Shown one piece after another: positions 1-50,167 of a stretch of 64,000 nt of DNA (positions are counted from its first letter, which is position 1; every line of letters starts with the position of its first letter). The notes below the pieces were generated by a model that was given only the letters and a program-made list of their open reading frames with translations, made no database searches and was not told where the DNA came from. The position numbers and the translations under genes are program-made. Source of the stretch: Zingiber officinale (lineage: Eukaryota; Streptophyta; Magnoliopsida; Zingiberales; Zingiberaceae); NCBI RefSeq assembly GCF_018446385.1, contig NC_055988.1, forward strand, positions 161,212,209-161,276,208, in the 5' to 3' direction.

Positions 1-478
1 TTATTTATGATGTTGAATTATACACTAGAACCTTTTGTATGGCTGAATGACCGGGTCAGTCCTCTTCAAGATGGAGAGGATTAATCTTTTGAAAGAGAGT
101 TGGATACCTGATCAAAGAAAACTCTTCTTTGACCATATTTATACCACCTTGGATCAGTTTTGAGAAAGCTGTTCTTATAGTATTTTAATCAAAATTGCTC
201 TTTTAAATAGTACGATTTCGATTAAAGTTATTTTAAAATAAAAGTAAAATTTGAATATTTTGGATATCAAATTATAAGTAAAATGTTGTTTTGATATTTT
301 TAAAAGATGAGTGTTTCTTTTACTATATGGATAATAAGAGTATTTTTTTAAAAAAAAATTGATAAATTTGTTTAGGGTTAAGTTCCTTAAGAGTGCTTAC
401 ACTTTTTATTGTTTTGGCTGAAGAGTTAGATACCTAACTATTTTTTTTTTTAACTTAGATATCTATTTTTGCGAACTG
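1..478. other. AT-rich intergenic, nothing recognised
   Basis: This stretch is AT-rich and has no credible reading frame or splice-ready exon. I see no tRNA-like head, LTR end or terminal inverted repeat in it. Confidence 0.4.
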
Positions 479-712
479 ACTATTTTGGGAGGTGATGAAT
501 CTGATCTTATGAAAATTTCTTATTCATCATCAAAGTAAATCAGGAAACGCTTAAGAAGGTACTCATCCAAGCAGTCAACGTTCTTAGGTTTATTGTCTCA
601 CTAGAGAAAAATCCCTATAGTATGCTAAAGTTGGGATAAAACCCTTAGATGTCTGGTAAACCACTTGAAAGGTCTAACCATTGCACCATATCCCTTGGGA
701 CATAGACTTTTT
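479..712 (-). mobile_element. tRNA-derived SINE (family S4), copy 1
   Basis: Read on the minus strand the element opens with a tRNA-like A-box region (TGGTGCAATGGTTAGA) and carries the body shared with copies near 0.8, 7.6, 44.6, 45.1 and 57.2 kb (for example 'TAAATCAGGAA' on the plus strand). A second copy lies 80 bp to the right. Both are followed by a similar 'TGTCACTAGGTT' stretch, so the pair may be a local duplication. The family label S4 is mine. Confidence 0.55.
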
Positions 713-787
713 TGTTTTGTATAAAAGATGTCACTAGGTTTTTAGATTCATTATTTCCTTGAATATCTAGCTTTTCGAATAGACTAA

Positions 788-1135
788 TCCTGAAGGTGAT
801 CGGTTCAGTCCCACAAAATTTTTTTACTGGCTATAAGGTAAATTAGAAAGCGCTCGCAGAAGTATATCTAAACGAACATCATTCTTAGATTTGTTGTCCT
901 ACTTAAAAAAAAACTCTACAGTGTGTTGCAGTTGGAATTCAAATTTTAGATGTCTGATTAACCATTTGGAGAACCTAACCGTTGCACTGTAATCCCAATG
1001 ACAAATACTTAACATTATTTTCTTTTATCGTAATCTCAGGGACACAGATACTTAATATTATTTTCTTTCATCGTAATCCCAGGAGCATATACTTAACATT
1101 TTTGTTTTGCCTAAAAAATGTCACTAGGTTATATT
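788..1135 (-). mobile_element. SINE S4, copy 2, with short tandem repeat at its head
   Basis: The body aligns by eye with the 479-712 copy. At its right end a unit of about 43 bp containing 'ACTTAACATTATTTTCTTT' occurs about three times between about 1000 and 1105. The right flank repeats 'TGTCACTAGGTT', as in copy 1. Confidence 0.5.
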
Positions 1136-1930
1136 AGATTTGATTATTTCCTCTTTTATCTTTTCTTCATAAAGTGACCATCAATGTTTGTGTGCTTCAT
1201 TATACCATGATGCACTAGGTTATTCACAATATTGCTAGTTGATTGATTATTACAAAATAGCTGAATAGGTTCTTCAATAATGAACCTTAACTTCTTTAGA
1301 GTCTTCGTAATCACACACCTTCACATATACCATGCTTCATTGCCCTAAATTCAGCTTATGTATTGTTCCTTGATATAATAGTTTGTTTCTTGTTTTACCA
1401 GGTAATTAAGTTTCTCCAAACATATGTGTAACAGTCGAAAGTTGATCTTAGATCTACTATTGATTTTCCTAATCAATATCACTATAAATATATGAATTTG
1501 CACACAAGCCTTATATTTGTTTTTATCAACTGGTGCATAATTCACTTTGGTTCCTTGGTTGATTGTTGAGTCTATAGAAATGTCTACATATTGGATATTC
1601 CAGTTTCTCTCAAAATGTAAATGTCCTAAACATATTTCGAGATCTCTCGTTAATTAGTAAATTTGTCAAAGCAAACTCTTTGAGATTTTTTTGAGTCCGT
1701 ATAATGATTGTTTTAAACTACAAACTTTGTTGTTGTGGCTTGCAATGCTCATGCATACTTCTTCTGCCAAGTCGAGAAAAACATTCTCGGCATCTAATTG
1801 ATGAAAGGGTCCATCAAGTTTATTGGCGAAAGTTTCTTCATAATTAATTCCATAAAATTGTGTGAACTTCTTGCAATGAATAGAGCCTTGAATTAACCAA
1901 CATTGTAGTATTTTGATCGATTAGTGCCTT
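1130..1930 (-). pseudogene. Ty1/copia reverse transcriptase-RNase H relic
   Basis: On the minus strand, conceptual fragments read FYGINYEETFA, then QLDAENVFL, KVCSLKQSLYGLK and finally LVHHGIMKHTNIDGHF. These match, in order, the Copia RT start (YGIDYxETFAPV), RT core (QLDVKNAFLHG), the SLYGLKQ motif and the RNase H tail (NPVxHxRTKHxxIDxHF). Stops and frameshifts break it throughout, and the RT core YVDD box is not seen. No LTRs can be paired with it. It is a decayed internal fragment, not a gene. Confidence 0.75.
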
Positions 1931-4900
1931 GGGAACAAAGATTAACAATTGGAGAAGAGAACCGATAACAAGCTAGATTTCGGAAGCTCCCAACTGAGCA
2001 ATTTTAGGACGTTGGTGGCCAAGCGCTCCTTGTCTTCCCCATATTTAATAAAAGGGTTTTCCTATCTAAGGTCAACACATGATCAGAGGTGTCGGTCTTG
2101 TCCTAGTAACCTCCCTCCGATTCTTAAGTGAGAATTTGAAAGAGGAGAGTAAAATGAAAAAAAAAAAAAAATGATTATACGAGTGGGCCTACCTTCTCCT
2201 AAATTATGACATTTCATTTATAACTATTATTATGTAATGATGCTTTTATCATATTAATATTCTCCTTCTATAATGGTCATCGACCATCATTAATATCTTT
2301 TAGTTTAGCAATAATCATCTGAAGTCTCCACTAATAATGATAATTATCAATAGCTTTTATTCACCCCGAAACAAATCAAACCTATGTTTCTCTTTCTAAA
2401 ATACTATTCGGCTTTGCGTCCACCTCCCGAATACTTTTTAGGTCTAAACATGCTTCTTGAACACCTCATGGGTTCAAACACATTTACGAGCACCTCATGA
2501 TTTTGTCTTCGACATTTTAGTATCTTCAAATTCTGAATCCAATTCCGGAGCACCTTATAATTTTGAACCTGATTTCTCAAACATTGTACGACTCCGATTC
2601 CACTCCACAAGTACTACCTTACAAGACCCCAATACCAAATTCAACCTCCTTCCTTACGGGCTTAACCTGGTCCATCCATGACAATCGTAGATTATTACGA
2701 AGTATCAAGAACAATAACTATTCTGCATTAGTGTCTTAGTCACATGTGGATTTCATGATCTATATCTAGATATTGTGTTCAATTGACTCTTTGGCAATCT
2801 AGTCGATTATAATTCATTCAAGTCGACCAGATGCAACATCTATTAATTTCTTTGATAAGAACATCTTCAATTAATATATGCTTTTTTTCAAGTTCGAATA
2901 GTAAGTTTGTCAAAAGCTTATTGATTGATTGAAGACTAGACAAAAAAGTAAATATTACTCTACTCTCACACTTCATTTAAGAGTTATCATCTATCGTTTG
3001 TGTTTGCCACCAAAGCTATCTCCTATAGTCCTATTAGGTTACTCGTCCCTTTGATACTCCAAGCCTATAACTCATTCTCTATGTCATCTTTCACACTTTA
3101 CCTATATAGTTTGTCTCCTTCTAACTATCCTTTATACTACAACCTTGATGCTCCTCATCCTGCATTCCCTCAAATATCTCATTTCATCATTCTCCAATCT
3201 CCTACAGACCTCATGTCATTGAGCCAACTAAATATTGCGTGCATCTTGCTAGCTAAGTCCTGCACAACTACGTGCACATCAAAAATATAGACAAATCTAA
3301 CTTAAATCCTTAGGTAATCACATCAAAATAGCACATTTGAATCTTCCACTTTGGGCATAATTGCAGTAACAAGAGTTGGATTTTGAACCATATAAATTTC
3401 TTTGGCATGTACCCAACATGCATGAGCTAATGAGATAACAAAATTTTAACTTGTAGGAGTCAAGCTATTCACCCTAAATGGAGTTTCGACTAGTTGGGAG
3501 GAGATATATTAGTATCTATGTTTTAGGTTAAGTGGTAGTTTAGTAAGGGATTTAAGATTTTTTGTCTTCATTAAATTTAAGTGGGAATTTTTCAAAAGAT
3601 TATGGGAAATTCCAATTAGCTGGTTGTTCATTCATTAAATTAAGATTACCCAAAAGAAGAAAAAAAAATAAAAACAAAAAATCAATGAAAAAAGGGAAAA
3701 CTCTCATGTTGAATTTAATTTCTCAATTGATGGACTTACATGCTAATTTAATAATACATTGGAGCACATCCCATAAAGAGATCTGATTAAAGTATTCGCG
3801 GGTTTGAATTTTTAGATATGAGTTTACATGTATAGAATATGTTAATTCGTTATGTTATTAATGATGAGATGCTAACATAATTGAGTCCACCATTATATAT
3901 AGGGCATGGTCCCATAGGATTAGGATTCCTAACAATTTTCACGTTTTTATTGGTGAATAGAATACGACGTTGTCATCTTAACACCCTCCAGAAGATTTGC
4001 TCATGTTTTTCTACCGAATCTCTAAATTTTGGAGAAAAATAACACAATAACACTTCTGTTGTATTCAGGTTCTATTTATTTTGTATCATCATTCACTTTA
4101 TATTTATTTTATTATAAAATTCGATGGAATTAAATCTGTTGCATAAATCTGATTTTTCCTATTCATATGAATTAGATTCCTAATTCCATCATCTCATAGT
4201 AAAATAATTATTAGCTAAAACCTAGAGAATCCATGCTAAATAATTAAGCATGCATAGTGTGTGAATCATATAAATCTGATGAAGTCATTGAAATGTGTAA
4301 GAAATGAATGGAGAGAAGATTTTTCATGAAGTTGTTGCCTCAAATATTATTTAAAGAGTTGGAGCTAAATTTTTACCACTGGTCCAATGTGGCAAAGAAG
4401 TGAACTCCTGACAATTAAATTAACATCCATGGTGAAATTTTGTGATACAGCCATTTAAATATCAATAATACAACTATTAATGAAATAATCTGTGGACAAG
4501 TGTTTTATCAATAATAAATACATTTAGAGATGAAATTCTCATCGTGTGGTTGATCATATTACTTTAATATTTGATAATAATTTTAAATTTGTTTTAATTG
4601 ATGATTTTGTTAGGGTTTATTATTGTAGCATTTATTATAGATCATTGGACAATGTTAAGCTTGGATGAATAAATTAGAGAGAAGTATGTAGCCAGTAACA
4701 GTTTGATCTCTTGAAGTTACTTTGAGAATATGTGTGGATTGTATGTTTGGTTAATAGGGAAAAAAATGATTAATAGGAAGATTTCATAGGAATAGGAATT
4801 GTTCTTATTGCTTTCATACCAATTGAAAGTTATTTTGGTCTAGTTCTTTGTTTTCCATGCTATATACTAAGCATTATTTATGTTCAATTTAGTAAGTTCA

Positions 4901-5064
4901 AAATTAGTAGTAGAGATTTGAACTAATATATTGTTACAAGTCTTGAACTATTCTAAATTGGTGTTTAGAGTTTTGGGGTTTAGGGTTAACCTATTTAACA
5001 AAATTAACCAAGTGTATAACAATTTGCATCTTGACACATGAACTTTCACAAAAGAATATTCTAG
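1931..5064. other. Intergenic, no gene recognised
   Basis: The region has only short open frames without recognisable domains. About 1950-2130 and 2400-2680 are somewhat less AT-rich and could be remnants of unidentified transposon coding sequence. Nothing resembling a promoter, LTR end or tRNA can be asserted. The last several hundred bases lie downstream of the PPR gene. Confidence 0.35.
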
Positions 5065-7419
5065 TTACCAATAATCTTTACAAGAACATGATCCGTCAGA
5101 GAACCGATGGAAACGGTTCCGATCCCGTACAACAATTACTCTGCCATATATCTGAGAGAGAAGCTTGCTAGCAGCATGGCAGTCATCACAAACCCGTAGG
5201 TTCTTTACGATTCTTAATGGAGTATTCGGAGGTGTACTGATAAGACCAAATGCCATTGCCAATTTCTCACTATGATAGTTAAGCACGGTCTCCTTCTCTT
5301 CATCATCTATGTTAAGAAACACGCCCGACGTATCAACAACATGCCCTGCCCGTTTAAGCTTCTCTAGCATCTCCGCAACCATTGCTTGAATCTGATCATG
5401 TAGAGGGTGTGAAGCATCATCCATCACAAACTCATGGACTACTCCATTTACCTCAATTGAGCTAATCCCAGGCACCTTCTTGATTCCTGTATCCTTCATA
5501 TTTTTCCTTACTTGTGCGACATCGTTCCATCTCCGGTCAATTGCATAAATATTCGAGAGAAGTATATTGTACCCACTGTTTAGGGGTTCCAGCTTAAGAA
5601 GTTCCTTTGCCGCCACTTCCCCTAATTTTGGGTTCTTATGAACCTTACACGCAGCAAGAAGTGCTCCCCATATGATCGTATTTGGTTCGGTAGGCATTCT
5701 ACATATCAATTCATGTGCTTCATCAAGGTTTCCAGCTCTACCAAGAAGATCAACCATGCACCCGTAATGTTCAACCTTGGGAATCAATCCATATGCATGC
5801 TCCATGCGATTGAAGAACTGCTTACCCTCTTCAACTAGCCCCGAATGGCTACATGCACGGAGCACTCCAATGAATGTGACATCGTTCGGTTTGACATCAT
5901 GCTTCTTCATCTCAAGGAAAAGGCTGATTGTTTCATTTCCATACCCATTCATAGCTAGCCCATTGATCATAGCATTCCACATGCATACATCTTTATCAGT
6001 TGTCTGATTGAATACTGCATAAGCAGCATTAACATCTCCACATTTGGCGAACATGTCTACCAATGAAGTGGCGAGCACCACATTCATTTCTATTCCTTGC
6101 TTATCAATACACGAATGAATCCATCTTCCTCGATCGAGAGCTCCAGCCTCAGAACATAGAGAAAGGAGGTTTACCATGGTTATTTCATTAGGCTTTAGGT
6201 TCAAACTTTTCATCTGGCTGAAGAGATCAAAGGCTTGATTGATGCAATTGGTGTGTGAGTAGCCCGCAATCATAGCAGACCAGACCATGATATCCTTCTC
6301 GTCCATGCAATCAAACAATGCTCTTGCACTCCTTAAATCGCGGCACTTACAATACATATCAACCAATGCAGTGCCCAAAACCACAGATATCTTGAAGCCA
6401 TACCGAAGTATGTAGCTATGAAGCCATTTGCCCAATTGCAACATTCCAGTTGATCCACACTCAATCACTAAGCTCAGCATTGTGATCTCATTGGGGAACA
6501 CATTGTTATCTCGCATCTTCGCGAATAGCTCCATTGCAGCACTCAAATCCTTGAAGCGAACGCAACCGGCAACCATAGCAGCCCATGATGCAGTGCTCTT
6601 TTCATTCATCCTGTCAAAGACTCTCCGAGCCACAGAAAGACTTCCACACTTGACATACATATCAATCAGGGCAGTGGTAGCATTGACACTTGGGGATTCC
6701 TTAACACTGTTCTTGATCAGATATGTATGCACTGGTCGGCCCTTTTTGATGTCTCCGGCGTCGGCAAAAAGATTGAGCATGTTGATAATGGTCACGTCAC
6801 TAGGTCGAATACCCGACAGAAGCATGTCTCTGACAAGATCCATGGCTTTGCCGAACAACTTACACCATGAATAATTCCTAATCATGGTGCTCCAAGAGAC
6901 CACATCTCTCTCGGGCATTTCATCGAACAGCTTCACAGCGCAGCCCAAGGCATCGCAGTCGGAATACATCTGCATTAAGGAATTGGACACGAAGACATCC
7001 CAATCCAGTCCGGCCTTGACGACGAACCCATGGACCTCCATGCCGTGGCGGATGCTCGACAGCTGCGCGCAGGCCTTGAGGACGGAGGGGACGGTGAAGT
7101 TATCGAGTCGGGCACCGGTCTTTCGCGTGTGGGCGTAGAGCTTCAGCGCGGAGAAGGGCGAGCTGTTCTTGATGTAGGAAGTGATGAGGTGGTTGATTTG
7201 GGCTTGAGGTGAGAGAAGGGGAGCAGCAGCAGCAGTTTGATACTGCGTGCGGATGATGTGAGCGTGGAGTTGTTTGGTTTGCTGCAGCGTTGTCGCAGCG
7301 AGCTCCTTAGGAGGTGGCGGTGGCGGTGGCTTGCGAGAGGAGACGGGGAGGGTTTTGAAGCGGGAGGAGAGGAGTGGGGAGACGGGGCGTTTGGCTGGGG
7401 TGGCCATGGCGGCGTCCAT
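5065..7419 (-). CDS. PPR protein, PLS class with E and DYW domains (organelle RNA editing factor)
   Basis: A single uninterrupted frame encodes 784 aa. After a Ser/Pro/Ala-rich N-terminus (about residues 1-50, with a run of seven prolines) that fits an organelle transit peptide, PLS-type PPR repeats run from about residue 70 to 600. They show the usual LIDMYVKCG, ARRVFDRM and PNEITM-type motifs. An E/E+ region follows, then a DYW domain with the deaminase-like signature HSE (716-718) and CxxC (744-747), a second CxC (778, 780) and the terminal tripeptide DYW. In this family such proteins bind organellar transcripts, and the DYW domain performs C-to-U editing. All metal ligands are present, so an active enzyme is likely. 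There are two possible starts (Met1 and Met5); I kept the longer. The intronless structure is usual for the family. The target site and the choice of plastid or mitochondrion cannot be read from sequence. Confidence 0.97.
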   Translation of the reverse strand: MDAAMATPAKRPVSPLLSSRFKTLPVSSRKPPPPPPPKELAATTLQQTKQLHAHIIRTQYQTAAAAPLLSPQAQINHLITSYIKNSSPFSALKLYAHTRKTGARLDNFTVPSVLKACAQLSSIRHGMEVHGFVVKAGLDWDVFVSNSLMQMYSDCDALGCAVKLFDEMPERDVVSWSTMIRNYSWCKLFGKAMDLVRDMLLSGIRPSDVTIINMLNLFADAGDIKKGRPVHTYLIKNSVKESPSVNATTALIDMYVKCGSLSVARRVFDRMNEKSTASWAAMVAGCVRFKDLSAAMELFAKMRDNNVFPNEITMLSLVIECGSTGMLQLGKWLHSYILRYGFKISVVLGTALVDMYCKCRDLRSARALFDCMDEKDIMVWSAMIAGYSHTNCINQAFDLFSQMKSLNLKPNEITMVNLLSLCSEAGALDRGRWIHSCIDKQGIEMNVVLATSLVDMFAKCGDVNAAYAVFNQTTDKDVCMWNAMINGLAMNGYGNETISLFLEMKKHDVKPNDVTFIGVLRACSHSGLVEEGKQFFNRMEHAYGLIPKVEHYGCMVDLLGRAGNLDEAHELICRMPTEPNTIIWGALLAACKVHKNPKLGEVAAKELLKLEPLNSGYNILLSNIYAIDRRWNDVAQVRKNMKDTGIKKVPGISSIEVNGVVHEFVMDDASHPLHDQIQAMVAEMLEKLKRAGHVVDTSGVFLNIDDEEKETVLNYHSEKLAMAFGLISTPPNTPLRIVKNLRVCDDCHAASKLLSQIYGRVIVVRDRNRFHRFSDGSCSCKDYW

Positions 7420-7619
7420 GGCGGATGCTGATGGAGTGCAAGGAGGAGGAGAGGATTTGATCCGTAGATGCTAAATCATAGCGTAGATCTCGAAGAACCG
7501 TGGGCCCGGGGATCCTCGTTGGGACATTATAAAATAATAATAGTAATAATAAATAAATAAATTTTATATTTTATTTTTAAAAAAAATTGATAAATTCAAT
7601 TACTCTCATTGTCTAATTT
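7420..7619. promoter_or_regulatory. 5' flank of the PPR gene
   Basis: About 100 bp of GC-richer leader (7420-7525) precede the PPR start codon on the minus strand. An abrupt change to AT-rich sequence follows near 7530, where 'TTATTATAAAATG' on the minus strand could act as a TATA element. The call rests on composition and position only. Confidence 0.3.
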
Positions 7620-7770
7620 TATGATAATTGATCTAATCTCATGAAAATTTTTCACCAATTATTAGAATAAATCAGGAAGTGCACACAACGAGTAGCCTAG
7701 AAATCTAATATTATTTGATTATGCACTCCATTTAGAAGAAATTTTTTTACAAATGTGCTACTATGAGTAG
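7620..7770 (-). mobile_element. SINE S4, partial copy
   Basis: It contains the family body 'ATAAATCAGGAAGTGCA' and the 'CATTTAGAAGAAATTTTTT' stretch seen in the 44.6- and 57.2-kb copies. The tRNA-like head is missing, so it is truncated. Confidence 0.45.
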
Positions 7771-8097
7771 GGAAAAAAAAACAAAAGAGAAGAACCCACA
7801 TATACAGGTTTGAGCATTCCCATTACACCCTACTCATTTCGCTGTTCTCAAAATTTTATCTCGCTTTTTCAAATTTAAGGTCCCGTTTGATACATGGGAT
7901 TCGGTACTAGATGCTATAGGAAAAGTTATAATCCAACTCAATTTATTATATCTTCGGGGGTAGTGATTGTTTATCATATTAATTATTACATACTTTATGA
8001 TTCCTATCCCACTAAAAAATAGAACATAAGATAATATTTAATTCATAAAATATCACTTATTCTATCTCCTCTACCAAATGAAGTAGATAAAAAATTT
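7771..8097. other. Intergenic, nothing recognised
   Basis: AT-rich DNA without an open frame. 'CCCGTTTGATACATGGGAT' near 7883 resembles the terminus of a PIF/Harbinger MITE, but no partner terminus was found. Confidence 0.3.
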
Positions 8098-8317
8098 AAA
8101 GTGTGTTTTGTTTGCAATTTTTTATTTTCATTTTTTGAAAATATATGTTTCTTACAAATGATGTTTGGTTTATATTTTTTTTTATCTGTTTTGTAAAAAA
8201 ATATATATCATTTTTTGGAAAAATAGAAAATGACTAAAAGCTATTTTCTATTTCTTAAAAAATACTCGTTTTTTGGAAAAATAAAAATAAAAAACATGCA
8301 AACTAAACATACTCTTA
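8098..8317. mobile_element. MITE with about 37-bp terminal inverted repeats
   Basis: The left end AAGTGTGTTTTGTTTGCA and the reverse complement of the right end (AGAGTATGTTTAGTTTGCA) match closely and continue into shared TTTTTATTTT sequence. The element is about 220 bp, non-coding and very AT-rich. The flanks show TTAA on the left and TTA on the right, compatible with a 3-bp TTA/TAA duplication of the PIF/Harbinger type, but the exact edge is uncertain. Confidence 0.55.
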
Positions 8318-9014
8318 CTTCTCAATTTGCACTTTCCAATTCATATCAAGAGATTTCAAAGAGTATATTAATTTTGATTTGAAATAATTTAAAATTTTCT
8401 AAGTCCATAAATAAATTTTTGACAAAATCGATTGTGAACCTATACTATTTAAAAATTCAAAAGTTTTATATTTTTTGAATCAAGAAAATCCTAGAAACCT
8501 ATTGTTGGTGTTAGTTAGTAAGTATTATTATCATATACCTTATAATGAGTTGTGATAAATTTTATTAAGTTTTTATAAGTTAAAAAATTTATTATTCTCG
8601 CCGGAGGACATAGATATATTAAGGAGGCTTTCAAAAATAGGTTGATTTGATTTAGAGTAATCTAAAATTTTCTAGACCCATTAACAAACTTATAAAGATG
8701 AAACTTATTGATGAACACCACAAAATTCAGAATTTTAATATTTTTTTAATCAAAAGAGTTCTATAAACCAGGGTGTTATTTAGTATCATTGTATTCTACA
8801 TTATAATGAGTTTGTTAGAGGTGAAGCCGGGTAGTCAATGATATATAATTTTAAAATAGTCAATAAATATACCTCAACAAAATTTTATACTAAAATTACA
8901 ATTTTCATGACGAAAAGTCATGATGTGAAATCATTGCATAATAACTTCATTGTCAATTCCATTAAAAATATTTTTCACAATGTACAAAACATATAAATAT
9001 TAAGCCAATCATTC
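8318..9014. other. Intergenic, nothing recognised
   Basis: AT-rich. Two similar stretches near 8360-8420 and 8640-8700 share 'AAAATTTTCTA' and neighbouring words, suggesting an old duplicated repeat. No coding signal. Confidence 0.3.
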
Positions 9015-9740
9015 CCATCAAAGTGATTTATCCCAAGTGGTAAGTATGGAGACATATGTTATCTAGGATTCTAGGTTTGAGCCCCCTTAATTAGTACCAA
9101 ATAATTCCCTCTTTGATGGGACCTTGATTAAGGTGCTGTCTTGGCAGTGGGACCTCTTATTAACATAATGCTACTATGTCTCCGGAGGTGGGGTTAATCA
9201 CTATAAAAAGTTTACTTGGAAAATTTTCTATCGAAGTGACTTATCCCAAATGGTAAGCATGAAGACATGTGTTGCCTAGGGTCTCGGGTTCGAGTCCCCT
9301 TAGCAATAAATAAATCCTCCTTTGAGGGGTCTATTAACTGAAGATAAAATCCCCCTTTGAGGGGTCTATTAACTGAAGTGCTATCTCGGGTATTGTGCTT
9401 TCAAAAAATTCCTTAAGGAGGTTTTTTGATATGGGGTCATCTTGGCGGTGGGGCCGATCACTATAAAAAATTTATTCGAATAATTTTTTTTGTCAAAGTG
9501 ACTTATCCCAAGTGGTAAGCATGGAGATATATGTTGCCTGGGGTTCCAGGTTCGAGTCCCCTTAACAACAAATAAATCTCCCTTTGAGGGGTCTGTTGAC
9601 TGAGGTGTTGTCTTGGTAGTGGGACCTCTTATCAACACAATGGTATCGTACCTCCAAAAAATCCCTTAGGGGGTTTTCTGATATGAGGTCATTTCGGCGG
9701 TGGGGTCGATAACTATAAAAAGTTTACCCGGACAGTTTTT
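9015..9740 (+). mobile_element. Head-to-tail array of three SINE-like copies
   Basis: Three copies start near 9018, 9231 and 9492. Each begins with 'AAGTGACTTATCCCAA' and GTGGTAAG-type A-box sequence, carries a B box (GGTTCGAGTCC in copies 2 and 3, GGTTTGAGCCC in copy 1), shares 'CCTTTGAGGGGTCT' and ends in 'ACTATAAAAAGTTTAC' plus a T-rich run. Copy 2 has an internal duplication of about 37 bp near 9315-9375. The internal Pol III-like boxes mark a tRNA-derived SINE. No clean target duplications are visible at the junctions. Confidence 0.6.
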
Positions 9741-11582
9741 TTTTGTCCCCAAGGCGTAGCACTGTTAGTTAGAGCCCTAAAGCTAATCATTTGATGATTG
9801 TTGTATGAACTCATTGTATCATATTCTTGTATATAAATAAAGGCATTTATTTTTTGTTATTATACTTACTTGTATTGGTTCCAAATAACTAAGTATAATA
9901 GCGTCCTTGAGTAGAAGATTCTTACCTATATCAATCGGTTAGTTGAATCGATAGTGAGATGATATAGGGAACACTACTCTTAATCATTCCTAGTCAAGTA
10001 TTAGCATTCAAGGACAATGTTAATGCGACGAGACTAGCATGTAGGTCAACTCGATGGCTTGATCTCACAAGTCATGGATATGGAGATATCAAGTTGACAC
10101 ATGGGTATGCATTGGAGAATGTATACAGAATGACCCGCCATGAGAAAGTATCATGGATCGTTATATGAGTGTCATATACTTTCTCATGTGGCTATTAGAA
10201 TGACTACTAGTCCTTGTTGGACCTGAAATCACCATGGTTCCCTACATAAGGAGTTACGTACTTTGGCTTCGTCAAACGTCACCCATAACTGGGTGGACTA
10301 TAAAGACGATTACTGGGTATGTAACAAATTATGCGGAGGGATGTGAGTGATGTAGATGAGATCTATCCCTCCTATATGACGAGAGTGACATCGATATTCT
10401 TGATAGAGTGAGACCACTAAATGCATGGTCATGCCCAAATGAGTCAATATGAGATGTTGAACTCATTTGATTGAGTGAGTCTACTTGGGATTCAAGATTT
10501 AGATTGATTAGAGGATGACACAGTCTATGCCTCACATTGATCAATCTAGATGTCAAGGATAGAAGGGCACTTGTCATATATTGTGAAGAGTCACAATTAG
10601 TAGTCACAAGGTGATGTTGGATCTCAACATTCTTATAACTTGAGTAGTAATAATGTGTTGCTAGATACCATTTATTACTTATGCTTCTAAATAGGTTTAG
10701 GAGCATTGCCAACGTTATAAAAACCTATAGGGTCATACGCAAAGGGCAATTAGATGGAGATTAGGTTCATTTGATGAACCTAAAGGATTAGGTTCATGTG
10801 ATGAACCAAATTGGATTAAGAGTAATCCAAATTGAGCTAATTGAGTTGGACTCAATTTGGTTCATGTGTAAGTGAGTCTAATTTGGACTTAGACTCATTT
10901 AATTAATTTAATTCAATGAATAGAGATTCATTAAATTAAAATTGACTTAAACCAATGGTTAGATTAGATCAACCAAGGGAGAGAAGTGGTCAAGTTTGAC
11001 TTGACTTGAGAGGAAGATGAAGGGTCAAGTTTGACTTGACCATTTGCCACCTCATTGGTGAGTTGGCATTAAGTGGCTAATGGTGATATGACACATCATC
11101 AAGGTTGCTTAAGTGGAGTGCCACCTCATGTGGGAAATCAAGAGCCTTGACTCTTGATATTCCATGGGGATTACAAGCCATTAAGTGGTCGACCACTTAA
11201 AGATGTGAATTAGTGCATTTTGTGTGCTAATTGATTTTCATCTTCTTCACTTTGTTTTTCTTCTTCTCCCTCTCCTCCTCCTTACCGAGACCATCAAGGG
11301 TGTTAGCACATCCTAGTGGTTTCTCTCCATCTCTTGCTACATAGAGGAGTATATACTTTGATACTCTCAAGATTCGGCGAACCGTGGACGAGCGAGATTA
11401 AGCGAAGGACTTCGTATCAAGGGTAAATTGTTATCTTGTAGGTCTAAAGTAGATCTAGGCTTAGAAAACTCGTACGTGAAAGTTTTACGAAATTTTATTT
11501 CTTCGCACGAATCTGTGGCATGGGAATTTCGGGGTTTCCGCAACACAAAAAGTGATTTTTACGGCCCGAAAAACCCAACAAG
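9741..11582 (+). mobile_element. Probable LTR-retrotransposon LTR/leader remnant
   Basis: A 1.8-kb stretch without coding capacity has LTR-like features: 'TATATAAATAAAGGC' near 9831, a pyrimidine-rich tract near 11240-11290, and an end around 'AAAAACCCAACA' at 11569-11580. 'GATGAACC' and 'GACTCAATTTGG'-type words recur near 10790-10880. No partner LTR or primer-binding site is visible, so a solo or truncated LTR is inferred. Confidence 0.4.
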
Positions 11583-17879: not shown

Positions 17880-18658
17880 ATGCTTGGGAGGAGACCTCCA
17901 ATACGCTCTGAGGAGCCTCCAACATGCTATGAGGTGCCTCCAATGCACTCTAGGGCACCTTCGCTCAACGAACTTCTATCCTCCAAGTTTATCCACACGA
18001 AGGCACTTCTACCATGTACAGGATGCCTCCACTAAACTTTGAGGCACCTTCCTACAACTTCGAGACGCCTCGAGCACTATTCATATGAGGTTGAGTTATG
18101 TATTTTAGTTCATGCAAAATCCGTTAGTCCAAATAGCAAATGTACACTACAAAACAAGGTTAGCAAAATAGAAATAAGATAATATTATTAATTAGATCTT
18201 GTCTTACCAAGACCAAGATCTAGTCATGATCTCAGTTTAGAATTTCAAAATAGATCTAAGTTAGACCAGCGCCTACAGTTTTACTGGGACTCGTCCTTAC
18301 TATATCACTCTCCTCCGTTGCTTATCTCAGTTACCATTGTAAACTTACTTGACCTTGATCACTAGACCCACTAGGTCTTTCTACCAGATATCCCATCTGG
18401 ACTTCAGGTAATCGTCCGGTCCTCCCTGACCTTACTGGACTTCCTGCCAATTGTCTAGTCCTCTCTGACTCAGCTAGACTTCCTGTCAATCGTCTGATCC
18501 TCCTTGACCCAACTAGACTTCAGTCTGGTGTATGCTCCCTATTAAGTCTTTAACTCATGCACACTTAGTAAAAGGATTAGAACACACAACATCTAACTTT
18601 AAATCATTTGTTATTCATTAAAACCCAAGTTTGACAATTGGTGTTGACTGCACCAACA
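17880..18658 (-). repeat. 3' LTR (truncated) of a minus-strand SIRE-like element
   Basis: Read on the minus strand it starts TGTTGGTGCAGTCAACACC at 18658 and matches the LTRs at 23.6-24.5 kb (minus) and 48.85-50.17 kb (plus). Shared sequence includes the block of GGACCAGAC-type repeats of about 45 bp and 'CAAGATCTAATTAATAATAT'. Its U5 end is missing at about 17880, where it abuts the TRIM fragment. Confidence 0.7.
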
Positions 18659-23413: not shown

Positions 23414-24465
23414 TGAATCACGTGTATTTAAAAATAAGTCTTTTTCGACTTTTCAAAATTAAGTGCGCAACGAAATAAAACTAAATATGAAAGTGAAAAA
23501 TAGAACGCAATTGATTTACTTGGTTCAGAGTATTCGACGACTCCTACTCTAAGACCTAAGTCCTTTGGATCGATCGACAGATAATCCACTAAATTTGAAA
23601 CAAATACAAAATATGTAGAACGTGTAACACCCTACACTTCCTTTAAGCAATAATGTAAAGGACTTAAAAATTAAATCATTATCCAACACAATGACATCGA
23701 AGTGTGGAAGCTCAGGTGTTGATGTTGGTCTGCTGGCAATGTTTGAACGTAAACGAGTAGTAGAACAGCAGCAGCGCTAGAACGTAGCAGCAGAACATTC
23801 AAGGAGTTGTGTAGGAGATGTATGTCAAGTGTTGCCGCTATCCTCCTTTTAAACAGTGTTGGAGGCGCCTCCAAAGCTTCAGGGCACCTCTAATAGCGCT
23901 TATTCGATCCGCAAAATTCGATTTTTATCCGTACAAAGGCACCTCCAATGGCTCTTTGGCATCTCCAATGCGCTATGAGGCACCTCCAATGGGCTCCAAG
24001 GCATCTTCGCTCAGCAAACTTTCTATTCCTAAAGTTTATCTGCGCAAGGGCGCCTCTGTCATGTCTAGAGTGCTTCCACTGAGCTTTGAGGCACCTTCCC
24101 GCAATTCTCAGGCGCCTTAAGTACTGTTCATCCGAGACTGAGTTATGTATTTTAGCTCATGCAAAACTCATTAGTCCAAATAACAAATGCACACTACAAA
24201 ACATGGTTAACATAATAGAAATAAGACAATATTATTAATTAGATCTTGTCTTACCAAGACCAAGATCTAGTCATGGTCTCAATTTAGACTTCCAAAATGA
24301 ATTTAACTTGAACTAACGTCTACAATCCCACTGGAGCTCGTCCTCACTAAATCACTTTCCTCCACCAGTGCTTACCTCACTTACTATTGTAGATTTACTT
24401 ATCTTTGATCTCTTAATCCACCAGATCTTCTTGCCAGATACCCTATCTGGACTTTAGCTACATCA
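23414..24465 (-). repeat. 5' LTR (truncated) of the minus-strand SIRE-like element
   Basis: On the minus strand it contains the sister sequences of the 48.85-50.17-kb LTR: GGAGGCGCCTCCAACACTG upstream of a TATA-like ACTGTTTAAAAGGAGG, the 'AACACCTGAGCTTCCACACTTCG' region in shortened form, and CACGTGATTCACC at the U5 end. Its U3 side stops at about 24465, within the GGACTTTAGCTA stretch, where unrelated sequence begins. Confidence 0.65.
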
Positions 24466-45770: not shown

Positions 45771-47096
45771 TTTTGTAGGTGAACAATAAAGATGACACAT
45801 TTGATTAAGCGTATAGGCCTTCGTGCTTCGGAACACATTGGCCCACTCGCAATCTGTTAATATAATACATTTTGGGGATTTAATCGGTGCCGACCTAAGG
45901 TATAGGCCCCATTATTTTATTAAATAATACTAAAAGGTCGTTTCTATCTTTCAATTTAGCTGTAAGCACTCGTTTGATTTTGTTCCCACTCAAAATGGAA
46001 TACAAAGATTAAGTTTAATTGATTAATTTTATATTTTAAAAAATAGATTTGGATAAAATATAACAAAAATTAAAACGTTTTAGCGTGCACTTAATTTTTT
46101 ATATTTTTCAAATGGCTCACTATATATACTTTTTTAAAAACAAAAATTACCAAAAGGACACACTTAATTGCTACAATATTTTTTCATGTCCTAAATTTAA
46201 ATGCAAATTATTTTTTAAATTTAAATCGAATTAAACTGAACCAAGCAGAATCAAATAAAAAAACTTAATTATTTAATTTCATATAACAATCATTCATAAC
46301 TTTTAAAAGTCTACTTTTTTAAAAAAAAATTATGTTATTAAATTTATAATCTCCTTAATTTATCCATATTTTTTTAGAAAGTTCAAAAATAATAAAAATT
46401 TTAAAAATACAAAAAGTTAATAAAAATTATAAAATTAAAAGAACATTAATAATAAAATAATTTTTATTTTTAATAGCTAATTATAAGAGAGAGAAAATAA
46501 ACAAAAAATTAATATTTTTATTTTCAGCATTTTACTGAAGCCGCACAAATTTTGGAATTTCTCATTTCGTGTAAGTTTCATAATACTCATATCACTCAAT
46601 ACATTCTCATTATACCCCACATTTCACAACTCTTGAAAGTTTCTCTCGCTTATTCAAAATTTCTGCCCTACCCATAGAAAAATCATCATTCTCAATTTAC
46701 ACTTTCGAATTCAAATTTAAGGATATTAATACCTTAGGGAGATTTGTAAGAGTGCATTGATTTTGAAATGACTTGAAGTTCTTTAGGTCCATTACGTAGT
46801 TTCAGACAAAACTTGTTGATGAACTTAGAAAATTCTGAATCATTTCAAACTAAAATCAATGCACTCCTAGAAATCTCTTTAATGTATGCATGCCCTCAGA
46901 TCTAAATTTGATAGCATAAATTGAGAACAGTGAAATTTTAAACTTGTAAACATTTGATAAAATTTGTTACAAACTCAAGGGTGAATCCACAAACATCTAG
47001 GCCCCCGCACCTCCTCTCAATTTTTTTATTAGTGTCGTTGTAGTTTATAATTCCGCCCCCCTTATTTGCACATTTTGCCCCTCATAACATAAGTTC
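45771..47096. other. Intergenic, nothing recognised
   Basis: AT-rich DNA without recognisable coding sequence. A pair of near-inverted stretches at 46755-46800 and 46830-46870 ('GTGCATTGATTTTGAAATGA' and its complement-like sister) suggests an old inverted repeat. Confidence 0.3.
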
Positions 47097-47259: not shown

Positions 47260-47391
47260 TATAGTTAGTACAATTTAATTTTTAAATAAAATTTAATTTT
47301 TTAGATTTATTTTAATTTTAAAGTGAAATTTAATTGATTTTTAATATTTAATCACAGAAAGACTCATTTTTGTAAAAAAGAGAGTTTTTAT

Positions 47392-47512
47392 CGTTCTTGC
47401 ATCGAGCTATATTTTCTAGGACCTCCCCTATAGTATCATCACCACAGTAGAGTTTAACCATCAAGTTCGGGATAGATTGGTGTGGTTCCTCTACGCCTAG
47501 GACACCAAAATA
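47392..47512 (-). pseudogene. rrn5: Plastid 5S rRNA copy in a nuclear plastid insertion
   Basis: Read on the minus strand it begins TATTTTGGTGTCCTAGGCG and follows the plastid 5S rRNA through AGAGGAACCACACCAATC, GAACTTGATGGTTAAACTC and GGGGAGGTCCT to the end near 47392, about 121 nt. Several differences from the usual plastid sequence are C-to-T or G-to-A, as expected for decaying methylated nuclear DNA. It is not expected to be functional in the nucleus. Confidence 0.9.
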
Positions 47513-47740
47513 TCGAACCAAACCATGAACAAAAAAAGACATGAGAGAAAAGCATATTGACTAGTGATTGTGAGCCCCCAATTCTTAACTGGAAGGGACA
47601 CCAAACATCTCTGACCTTCCATCTTTTGGACAGATAGAGAGGGTGGACAAAGCTTTTGGTTTTTCATGTTGTTAAATAATTGAACAATGAAAATAGATAG
47701 CGAATGTCTGATCGAATTGATTAGGTTATGTAGGAACAAG
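47513..47740 (-). other. Plastid 4.5S-5S spacer in the nuclear insertion
   Basis: It contains 'GAGCCCCCAATTCTTAACTG', 'GGAAGGGACACC' and the 'GGTTTTTCATGTTGT' segment in the arrangement of the plastid rrn4.5-rrn5 spacer, continuing without a break from the 5S copy to the 4.5S copy. This co-linearity shows that one DNA segment was transferred. Confidence 0.8.
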
Positions 47741-47842
47741 GTTCAAATCTCTCAGTATATTAGGATGTCTTGGCTGCATATATCACTGTACTTCCACTTG
47801 ACACTTATCGTAATGATAAATGGTTCGTCTCGCCTTGACCTT
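47741..47842 (-). pseudogene. rrn4.5: Plastid 4.5S rRNA copy
   Basis: On the minus strand it reads AAGGTCAAGGCGAGACGAAC, then CATTTATCATTACGATAAG, GTCAAGTGGAAGTACAGTGA and ends near TTTGAAC, about 102 nt, matching plastid 4.5S rRNA in length and order with scattered transitions. Confidence 0.9.
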
Positions 47843-48050
47843 ATCTTGGATTCTCAATACTTCTATCGCTCCATCCCCGGATAGATAGAGAATCCGTCAT
47901 TGTCTCGGCTATGCTACCGGGGACTCTGGGGAAGTCAGAATAAGAGAGCACTCATCTTGAGGTGGGCTTGCTGCTTAAATGTTTTCAGCAGTTATCCACT
48001 ACGCACTTGGACTACCCAGCGTTTATCTTGGGCACAATAATTGGTACACA
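47843..48050 (-). pseudogene. rrn23: Plastid 23S rRNA 3' end and 23S-4.5S spacer copy
   Basis: On the minus strand this contains the end of plastid 23S rRNA: CCAATTATTGTGCCCAAGAT, AGCGGATAACTGCTGAAA-type sequence, AGATGAGTGCTCTCTTATTC and CCGAGACAATGACGGATTCTC. The short spacer to the 4.5S copy follows. Only the last 200 bp or so of 23S are present. At about 48048-48054 the plastid order breaks and trnS sequence begins. Confidence 0.85.
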
Positions 48051-48051
48051 A

Positions 48052-48075
48052 GAGGGTTAGAATCCCTCTTTCTTT
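48052..48075 (+). pseudogene. trnS-GCU: Plastid trnS-GCU 3' fragment
   Basis: GAGGGTTAGAATCCCTC then TTTCTTTG corresponds to the T-arm and acceptor strand of plastid trnS-GCU (GAGGGTTCGAATCCCTC in the functional gene). Only about 24 nt remain. Its orientation, opposite to psbI next to it, is the plastome arrangement. Confidence 0.75.
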
Positions 48076-48221
48076 GCTCACTCTAATTACTCCACCTGCT
48101 TGATACTTTCGATTTCAAAATTTCAAAAGGAATTGAAATTCCTTGAATTTATCATAGATAAATTTATAGAATAGATAACATAATAAGAAATGTTTAGTAA
48201 GAAAAGTTTAGAAAAAAATGT

Positions 48222-48329
48222 TTCCTCACGCCCAAGATTACGCCCTGGATCATTAGATAAGAAACCAAAGATGAAGAGAGAAACAAAGAATATTACTACC
48301 GTGTAAATAAAGAGTTTAAGACTAAGCAT
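48222..48329 (-). pseudogene. psbI: Plastid psbI copy (photosystem II subunit), stop codon lost
   Basis: The 36 codons give [20 protein letters not shown] and continue [16 protein letters not shown], almost identical to PsbI, a small one-helix subunit of photosystem II. After the normal last residue the frame runs on to residue 68 (48123) because the native stop is missing. With no plastid promoter context in the nucleus and no transit peptide, it is a transferred copy and not a working gene. Confidence 0.9.
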
Positions 48330-48565
48330 TACATAACCTCTAAAATAATCTTATTTCCGAAAAAGGGAATAGATTACCTATTTTTTCTTTCCAGCACATC
48401 TACTATTTTGTTTAATTTTACACGATCCCTGTAAAAAATCAATTTTGGAAAAAAGTCATTTTTACAAATTGATTTGTATTGTATGCAATAAGATTTTTCT
48501 ATCTTACTTACAACTTACAAAAAAAACTTCTTGTCATATCGACAATTAAGTATTGTACGGGACCT
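48330..48565 (-). other. Probable plastid psbK-psbI spacer
   Basis: The sequence upstream of the psbI copy (for example CAATAAGATTTTTCTATCTT and the 'ACTTCTTGTC' stretch) has the character of plastid intergenic DNA and probably continues the transferred segment to about 48560. The right edge cannot be fixed by eye. Confidence 0.5.
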
Positions 48566-48852
48566 AGATCCAGACCCATAATAACAAAAATGAAAAGATA
48601 AAAAAAAAAAAACTCAATTAAATGAGAGGAGGTTTGCATGAGAAGTTGCATTTGTCTTCTTTTTTAATGAAAGATACACACATGACAAAAAGTTGGGGAA
48701 GGGGAAGCCAATGGAAAATGGAAAAAGGGGAAGATTTCCTTCTTTTTGTATGAAACTGCCCTCCCAACTCTCCGTCGGTAAGATTTTATTTTATTTTTCT
48801 TGACTCTTCTAAATTCTGTTGAAGTTTTTATCTATTTACATTGAGTTCTAAA
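48566..48852. other. Intergenic, nothing recognised
   Basis: Purine-rich and T-rich stretches between the plastid insertion and the next LTR. No feature is supported. Confidence 0.3.
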
Positions 48853-50167
48853 TGTTGGCATAGTCAGCACCAATAGCCAAACTTAAATTTTGATTAATGA
48901 CGGATGATTTAAAGTTAGATGTTGTGTGTTTTAATCCATTTACCAAGTATGCAGGATTAAAAGATTTGATAAGGACCAGACATCAAACTAAAGTCCAGTC
49001 AGGTCAGGGAGGACCAGACAATTGGTAGGAAGTTTAGCTGAGTCATAGAGAACTAGACAGTTAGCAGAAAGTCCAGTCGGGTCAGGGAGGACCAGATGAT
49101 TGGCTGAAGTTCGCATGAGACATCTAGTAGGAAGACCTGGTGGGTTAAGAGATTAAGGTCATGTAAGTCTATAATAGTAAGTGAGGTAAGCATAAGAGGA
49201 AAGTGATCCAGTTAGGACGGGCTGTAAGCGCTGGTCTCAGATTGGATCCATTTTAGAAGTCTAAATTGAGAATATTACTAAATTCTGATCTTGATAAGAC
49301 AATATATAATTAATAATATTATTTTATTTCTATTATGCTAATCTTGTTTTACAAGGTACATTTGTTATTTGGACTAACGAGTTTTGCAGAAGCTAAAATG
49401 CATAACTCAGCCTTAGATGAACAGTGCTTGAGGCATCTTGGAGCTGCAGGGAGGTGCCTTAAAGCTCAATGGAGACGCCCTATAGACATGGAGGAGGCAC
49501 CCTCACGCGGATAAACTTTGGGGATAGAAGCTCGTTGAGTGAAGGCGCCCCAGAGCGCATTGGAGGTGCCTCAGTGCGCATTAGAGGCACCTTGGAGCCA
49601 TTGGAGGCTCCCATGCATGATAAAAATCAAACTCTACGAATCGAATAAGCGCTATTGGAGGCGCCTTGAAGATTTGGAGGCGCCTCCAACACTGTATAAA
49701 AGGAGGTCAGCAGCAACATTCAACACACACATCTCCTACATGACTCCTTAAGTGTTCTGCTACTACGTTCTCACGCTGCTGTTGTTCTACTATTCGTCTA
49801 CGTCCGAATGCTGCCAACAGACCAACACCAACACCTGAGCTTCCACACTTCGACATCATTATGTTGGGTAATGGTTTAATTTTTAAGTAATTTGCATTAT
49901 TGCTTAAAAGAAGTGTACGGTGTTACACATTTCTCATATTTTGTATTTATTTTGAATTTAGTGGATTACCTATTGATAGGTCCAAAAGATCTGAGTCTTG
50001 AAGTAGGGGTCGTCGAAGACTCCGAACCAAGTAAATCAACTGTGTTCTATTTTCCACTTTCATATTTAGTTTTATTTCGCTACGCACTTGCTTTTTAAAA
50101 ACTGAAAAAGACTCGTTTTTAAATACACGTGATTCATCCCCCCCCCCCACGTGTTGACGGCCCCACA
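48853..50167 (+). repeat. 5' LTR of a SIRE-like Copia element
   Basis: It begins TGTTGGCATAGTCAGCACC and ends near GGCCCCACA, about 1315 bp. It holds repeats of about 45 bp around AGTCAGGTCAGGGAGGACCA (48990-49110) and GGAGGCGCC-type words. A TATA box TGTATAAAAGG (49693-49703) is followed by a transcribed R/U5 that ends after a C-run (50139-50148). Its sisters on the minus strand are at 17.9-18.7 and 23.4-24.5 kb. Confidence 0.75.

Follow-up and report, generated by a model that had tools for sequence, protein, structure and literature searches.

In the genome of ginger (Zingiber officinale), DNA that resembles the plastid rRNA operon is directly fused to DNA that resembles the trnS-GCU/psbI region of the plastome, and the question arises whether this fusion is real, where its two parts originate and how and when they came together in a nuclear chromosome. 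The locus lies in a stretch of 64,000 nucleotides (contig C3, positions 161212209-161276208), here termed the window, to which all coordinates refer if not stated differently; the genome searched comprised 3,090,333,446 bases in 211 contigs. The locus is very probably a complex two-fragment nuclear plastid insertion that was end-joined at a nuclear break before the haplotypes diverged and has decayed since.

Extent and composition of the insert

The plastid-derived stretch was located at 47385-48573, where an rRNA-operon fragment of 671 bp (rRNA half) is fused to a trnS-GCU/psbI fragment of 522 bp (psbI half); the two overlap in GAGG and are separated by zero other bases. The following features were assigned:

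47385-48055, minus strand: plastid inverted-repeat fragment with the 3′ part of rrn23, rrn4.5 and rrn5 (Rfam 5S; genome matches restricted to one half; the nuclear copy L007 continues beyond 48055)
47394-47509, minus strand: plastid-derived 5S rRNA copy and presumed pseudogene (Rfam RF00001, 46.6 bits, gathering score 38)
48052-48055, no strand: GAGG common to both fragments, the join (comparison with L007 and the plastome piece L018)
48052-48573, plus strand: plastid large-single-copy fragment that begins with the final 26 bases of trnS-GCU and extends through psbI (corresponds to C211 8560-8020 in reverse; blastn, 89% identity over 543 columns)
48219-48329, minus strand: psbI copy with the stop codon lost (translation)

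The preliminary description had read this DNA as a chimera of rrn23-4.5S-5S and trnS-GCU-psbI, and this was borne out by the Rfam 5S match, by genome matches covering one half only and by the match of the psbI half to C211, a plastome-like contig of 157,500 bases whose first 10 kb carry the psbA 3′-UTR, trnQ and trnS-GCU. The names 23S and 4.5S for the left half, which had no family match, were assumed from plastid gene order, and the rRNA section of the plastome is presumably located in the inverted repeat. Since trnS-GCU was found with ARAGORN at 8535-8623 on the minus strand of C211 (piece L018), the insert holds the final 26 bases of the gene only; a complete trnS in the insert was rejected, and ARAGORN detected no tRNA genes in the window. 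An unchanged psbI was likewise rejected, as the stop is lost and the predicted frame is thereby lengthened to 68 aa in each haplotype vs 36 aa in C211.

In order to delimit the insert, the adjoining sequence was compared with the plastid continuation by means of shuffled sequences. The 40 bases outside 47385 did not resemble the way in which the plastid sequence continues in two nuclear copies (of 500 shuffles, 138 and 421 scored as high), the same was true for 125 bases (472 and 417 of 500 shuffles), and no similarity to the plastid continuation was found for the stretch beyond 48573 (195 of 500 shuffles). The chimeric insert first proposed at 47345-48565 therefore stands with corrected ends: by the shuffle test 47345-47384 is not plastid-like, and the right end is at 48573. 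When the whole window was compared with 21.5 kb of readable plastome, the psbI half was the one match; as the search of the flanks covered this 21.5 kb, more plastid fragments in the flanks are possible.

Several other elements were noted in the window. An inverted repeat is situated at 46678-46938, about 450 bases to the left of the insertion; its two arms of 87 bases are 75% complementary and separated by 87 bases, and it may be a small inverted-repeat transposon. A dispersed repeat at 48853-49598 recurs inverted at 17905-18658 and partially at 23963-24439 (77-78% identity). At 5065-7419 the minus strand carries a single long frame (784 aa), whose product, judged by eye, resembles a pentatricopeptide-repeat protein ending in DYW.

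The join and the distribution of its two halves

The overlap between the fragments is exactly four bases long (GAGG, 48052-48055), since the plastome and L007, a nuclear copy of the 23S type, differ in the base on each side of it: after GAGG, L007 continues with T and the plastome trnS with G (GAGGG), and the two also disagree at the preceding base. The earlier placement of the break at 48048-48054 with a GAGG overlap was essentially right. In 200,000 random joins of L007 (2.1 kb) with plastome sequence (4 kb), at least four bases were shared by chance in 1.7% of the cases; the 4-bp overlap is suggestive of microhomology-mediated joining, which from one join cannot be separated from chance.

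A genome search with 47345-48565 yielded 75 candidate places, 40 of which were scored. Both halves were spanned by two of these 40, the window itself and C4:139632658-139633883, which lies at the matching place on C4 and has 94% identity. Matches inside 47385-48055 only were found at 23 places and matches at or after 48052 only at 15, C211 among the latter, so that 38 of the 40 scored places, plastome contig included, hold a single half only. The origin of the two pieces from different places in the plastome, as initially suggested, is supported by this distribution and by C211: its psbI piece (8020-8560) is adjoined by trnS and trnQ, and no rRNA was found within the first 10 kb of this contig.

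This distribution also bears on the possibility that the pieces were fused first in the mitochondrial genome and then moved to the nucleus as a block. Plastid DNA is reported to be common in mitochondria of the family, with 156 pieces in Curcuma longa (PMC12940290), a study whose main text mentions neither psbI nor rrn23. Against such a transfer stands the presence of the fusion in C3 and C4 only among the 40 scored of 75 candidates, an argument of little weight as no contig was identified as mitochondrial; overall, a mitochondrial detour is improbable. Equally improbable is the more general case of a fusion inside an organelle, in which recombinant DNA from a rearranged plastid or mitochondrial molecule, rather than free fragments, would have been captured by the nucleus.

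Other plastid-type DNA was observed on C22. One block (C22:28932000-28941999, positions 298-10000 of this piece) comprises 9.7 kb with 99.8% identity to C211 and either was inserted into the nuclear genome very recently or was included during assembly. A second block (C22:38650000-38659999, positions 4277-9700) shows 97.8% identity to C211 over 5,483 columns.

The second haplotype and the relative age of the insertion

The insert is located in contigs of chromosome size, C3 (178 Mb) and C4 (157 Mb); in each of them it is some 17 Mb away from the end with the higher coordinates. Among the matches listed, at least 14 collinear blocks with 90-99% identity connect the two contigs and span at least some 49 kb of the 64-kb window. 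The two contigs most likely represent two haplotypes, because the assembly fits the published haplotype-resolved ginger assembly, for which 3.09 Gb before scaffolding, 22 superscaffolds in 11 pairs and pseudochromosomes of 88.69-194.39 Mb are reported (PMC8342452). The insertion site is filled in both haplotypes. Between them, 39/670 sites differ in the rRNA half and 21/521 in the psbI half (60/1191 for the insert), compared to 23/656 in the left flank, where the comparison is limited to 656 columns because the C4 piece (L010) begins inside this flank, and 62/1195 in the right flank (85/1851 for both flanks). The divergence of insert and flanks is equal (p = 0.60), and the insertion therefore predates the haplotype split.

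For the polarisation of changes, the rRNA half, whose counterpart in C211 reads N, was compared with three other nuclear copies, and a base on which two or more of them agreed served as reference; one of these copies (L008) covers this half up to 47898 only. The reference for the psbI half was C211, where changes in the plastome lineage would count among the shared ones. In the rRNA half, columns without two agreeing copies, with gaps in C3 or C4, or with three-way differences were dropped; GAGG was counted in both halves. Of the 1152 sites that could be polarised, 68 carried a change common to C3 and C4, namely 44/632 in the rRNA half and 24/520 in the psbI half. The one-sided changes amounted to 13 and 20 in the rRNA half and to 14 and 5, plus 2 three-way sites, in the psbI half. 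With 68 of 1152 sites changed before the split, the insertion would be about 3.5 times as old as the split (rRNA half 3.7, psbI half 3.5), an estimate from sequence divergence in which the one-sided changes of C3 and C4 were averaged and three-way sites were left out.

The comparison of the halves is relevant for the notion that two separate insertions took place at one site, or that the pieces became neighbours by a later deletion within an insertion that was larger or clustered. Shared changes are somewhat more frequent in the rRNA half (p = 0.10), and C>T/G>A changes account for 32 of the 44 shared changes there vs 10 of the 24 in the psbI half (p = 0.018, uncorrected), and both points speak for two events. 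The latter contrast may result from base composition together with the different references, as the GC content (278/671 in the rRNA half vs 152/522 in the psbI half) would push in the same direction. Opposed to two events are the lack of extra bases at the join, the identical join in both haplotypes and the rates of shared and later changes, which do not differ significantly between the halves (p = 0.40 for later changes), and this course of events is very unlikely. An assembly join, for which no supporting point was seen, is hardly conceivable: the same fusion at the matching place on C4, in a copy that differs at the 60 insert sites mentioned above, rules out a single assembly join.

Proposed mechanism and relation to known insertions

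In the scenario of a complex nuclear plastid insertion, linear plastid fragments would have filled a double-strand break in the nuclear DNA and been end-joined in doing so, probably via microhomology, and this capture would date to the time before the two haplotypes diverged. Afterwards the insert would have decayed in the same way as the adjoining DNA, C-to-T and G-to-A changes prevailing in the rRNA half. The nuclear break, the joining pathway and the single event are what we infer from the structure of the locus. Joining of plastid fragment ends at nuclear breaks is generally accepted as the way in which such insertions arise. For the present locus, end joining of plastid fragments had been proposed at the outset; the fusion with its 4-bp microhomology holds, and its timing before or during integration is a point that we infer, helped by the lack of additional bases at the join and by the similar decay of the halves. 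With regard to the pathway, sequence analyses are described as suggesting that NHEJ and MMEJ both take part, and break repair is reported to suppress plastid-to-nucleus transfer (PMC12181080), so that the pathway does not simply follow from the structure of the join.

In the titles and abstract beginnings of the papers listed for Zingiber and NUPTs, this locus was not named, and among these papers, by titles, organelle DNA transfer was covered only by the one on the Curcuma longa mitogenome. The locus adds a new example to a well described class, and the event is ordinary in plants; the rarity originally ascribed to it was overstated, as complex NUPTs are presented as a regular class (PMC6215612, PMC7037861). 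No general view is changed by this locus. Its value is that of a clean two-fragment insertion in both haplotypes, which records a plastid-to-nucleus transfer on a small scale and with a relative date; the fusion could serve as a marker to look for in related Zingiber species.

Complex nupts have been counted in nine plant genomes, with inner joins described as microhomologous or blunt (PMC6215612), and integrated fragments are reported to consist, as a rule, of mixed chloroplast segments linked via microhomology (PMC7037861). The ginger locus resembles these complex plant NUPTs, in which fragments originating from separate parts of the plastome are described to lie together at one nuclear locus, their joins being blunt or having short microhomology (PMC6215612, PMC7037861, PMC3989485). 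Its plastid-derived DNA is situated in nuclear chromosomes (C3 and C4) without plastid continuation outside the insert, its two fragments are of non-adjacent plastome origin, and its inner join (GAGG, 4 bp) falls within the 1-7 bp range of microhomology applied to complex NUPTs. There is no difference in kind; at the ginger locus the join can be dated relative to the haplotype split. Numins, mosaics of mitochondrial and plastid DNA, are similar in that their fragments carry end-joining signatures (PMC6215612), but they need at least one mitochondrial fragment, whereas both identified pieces of the ginger insert are plastid.
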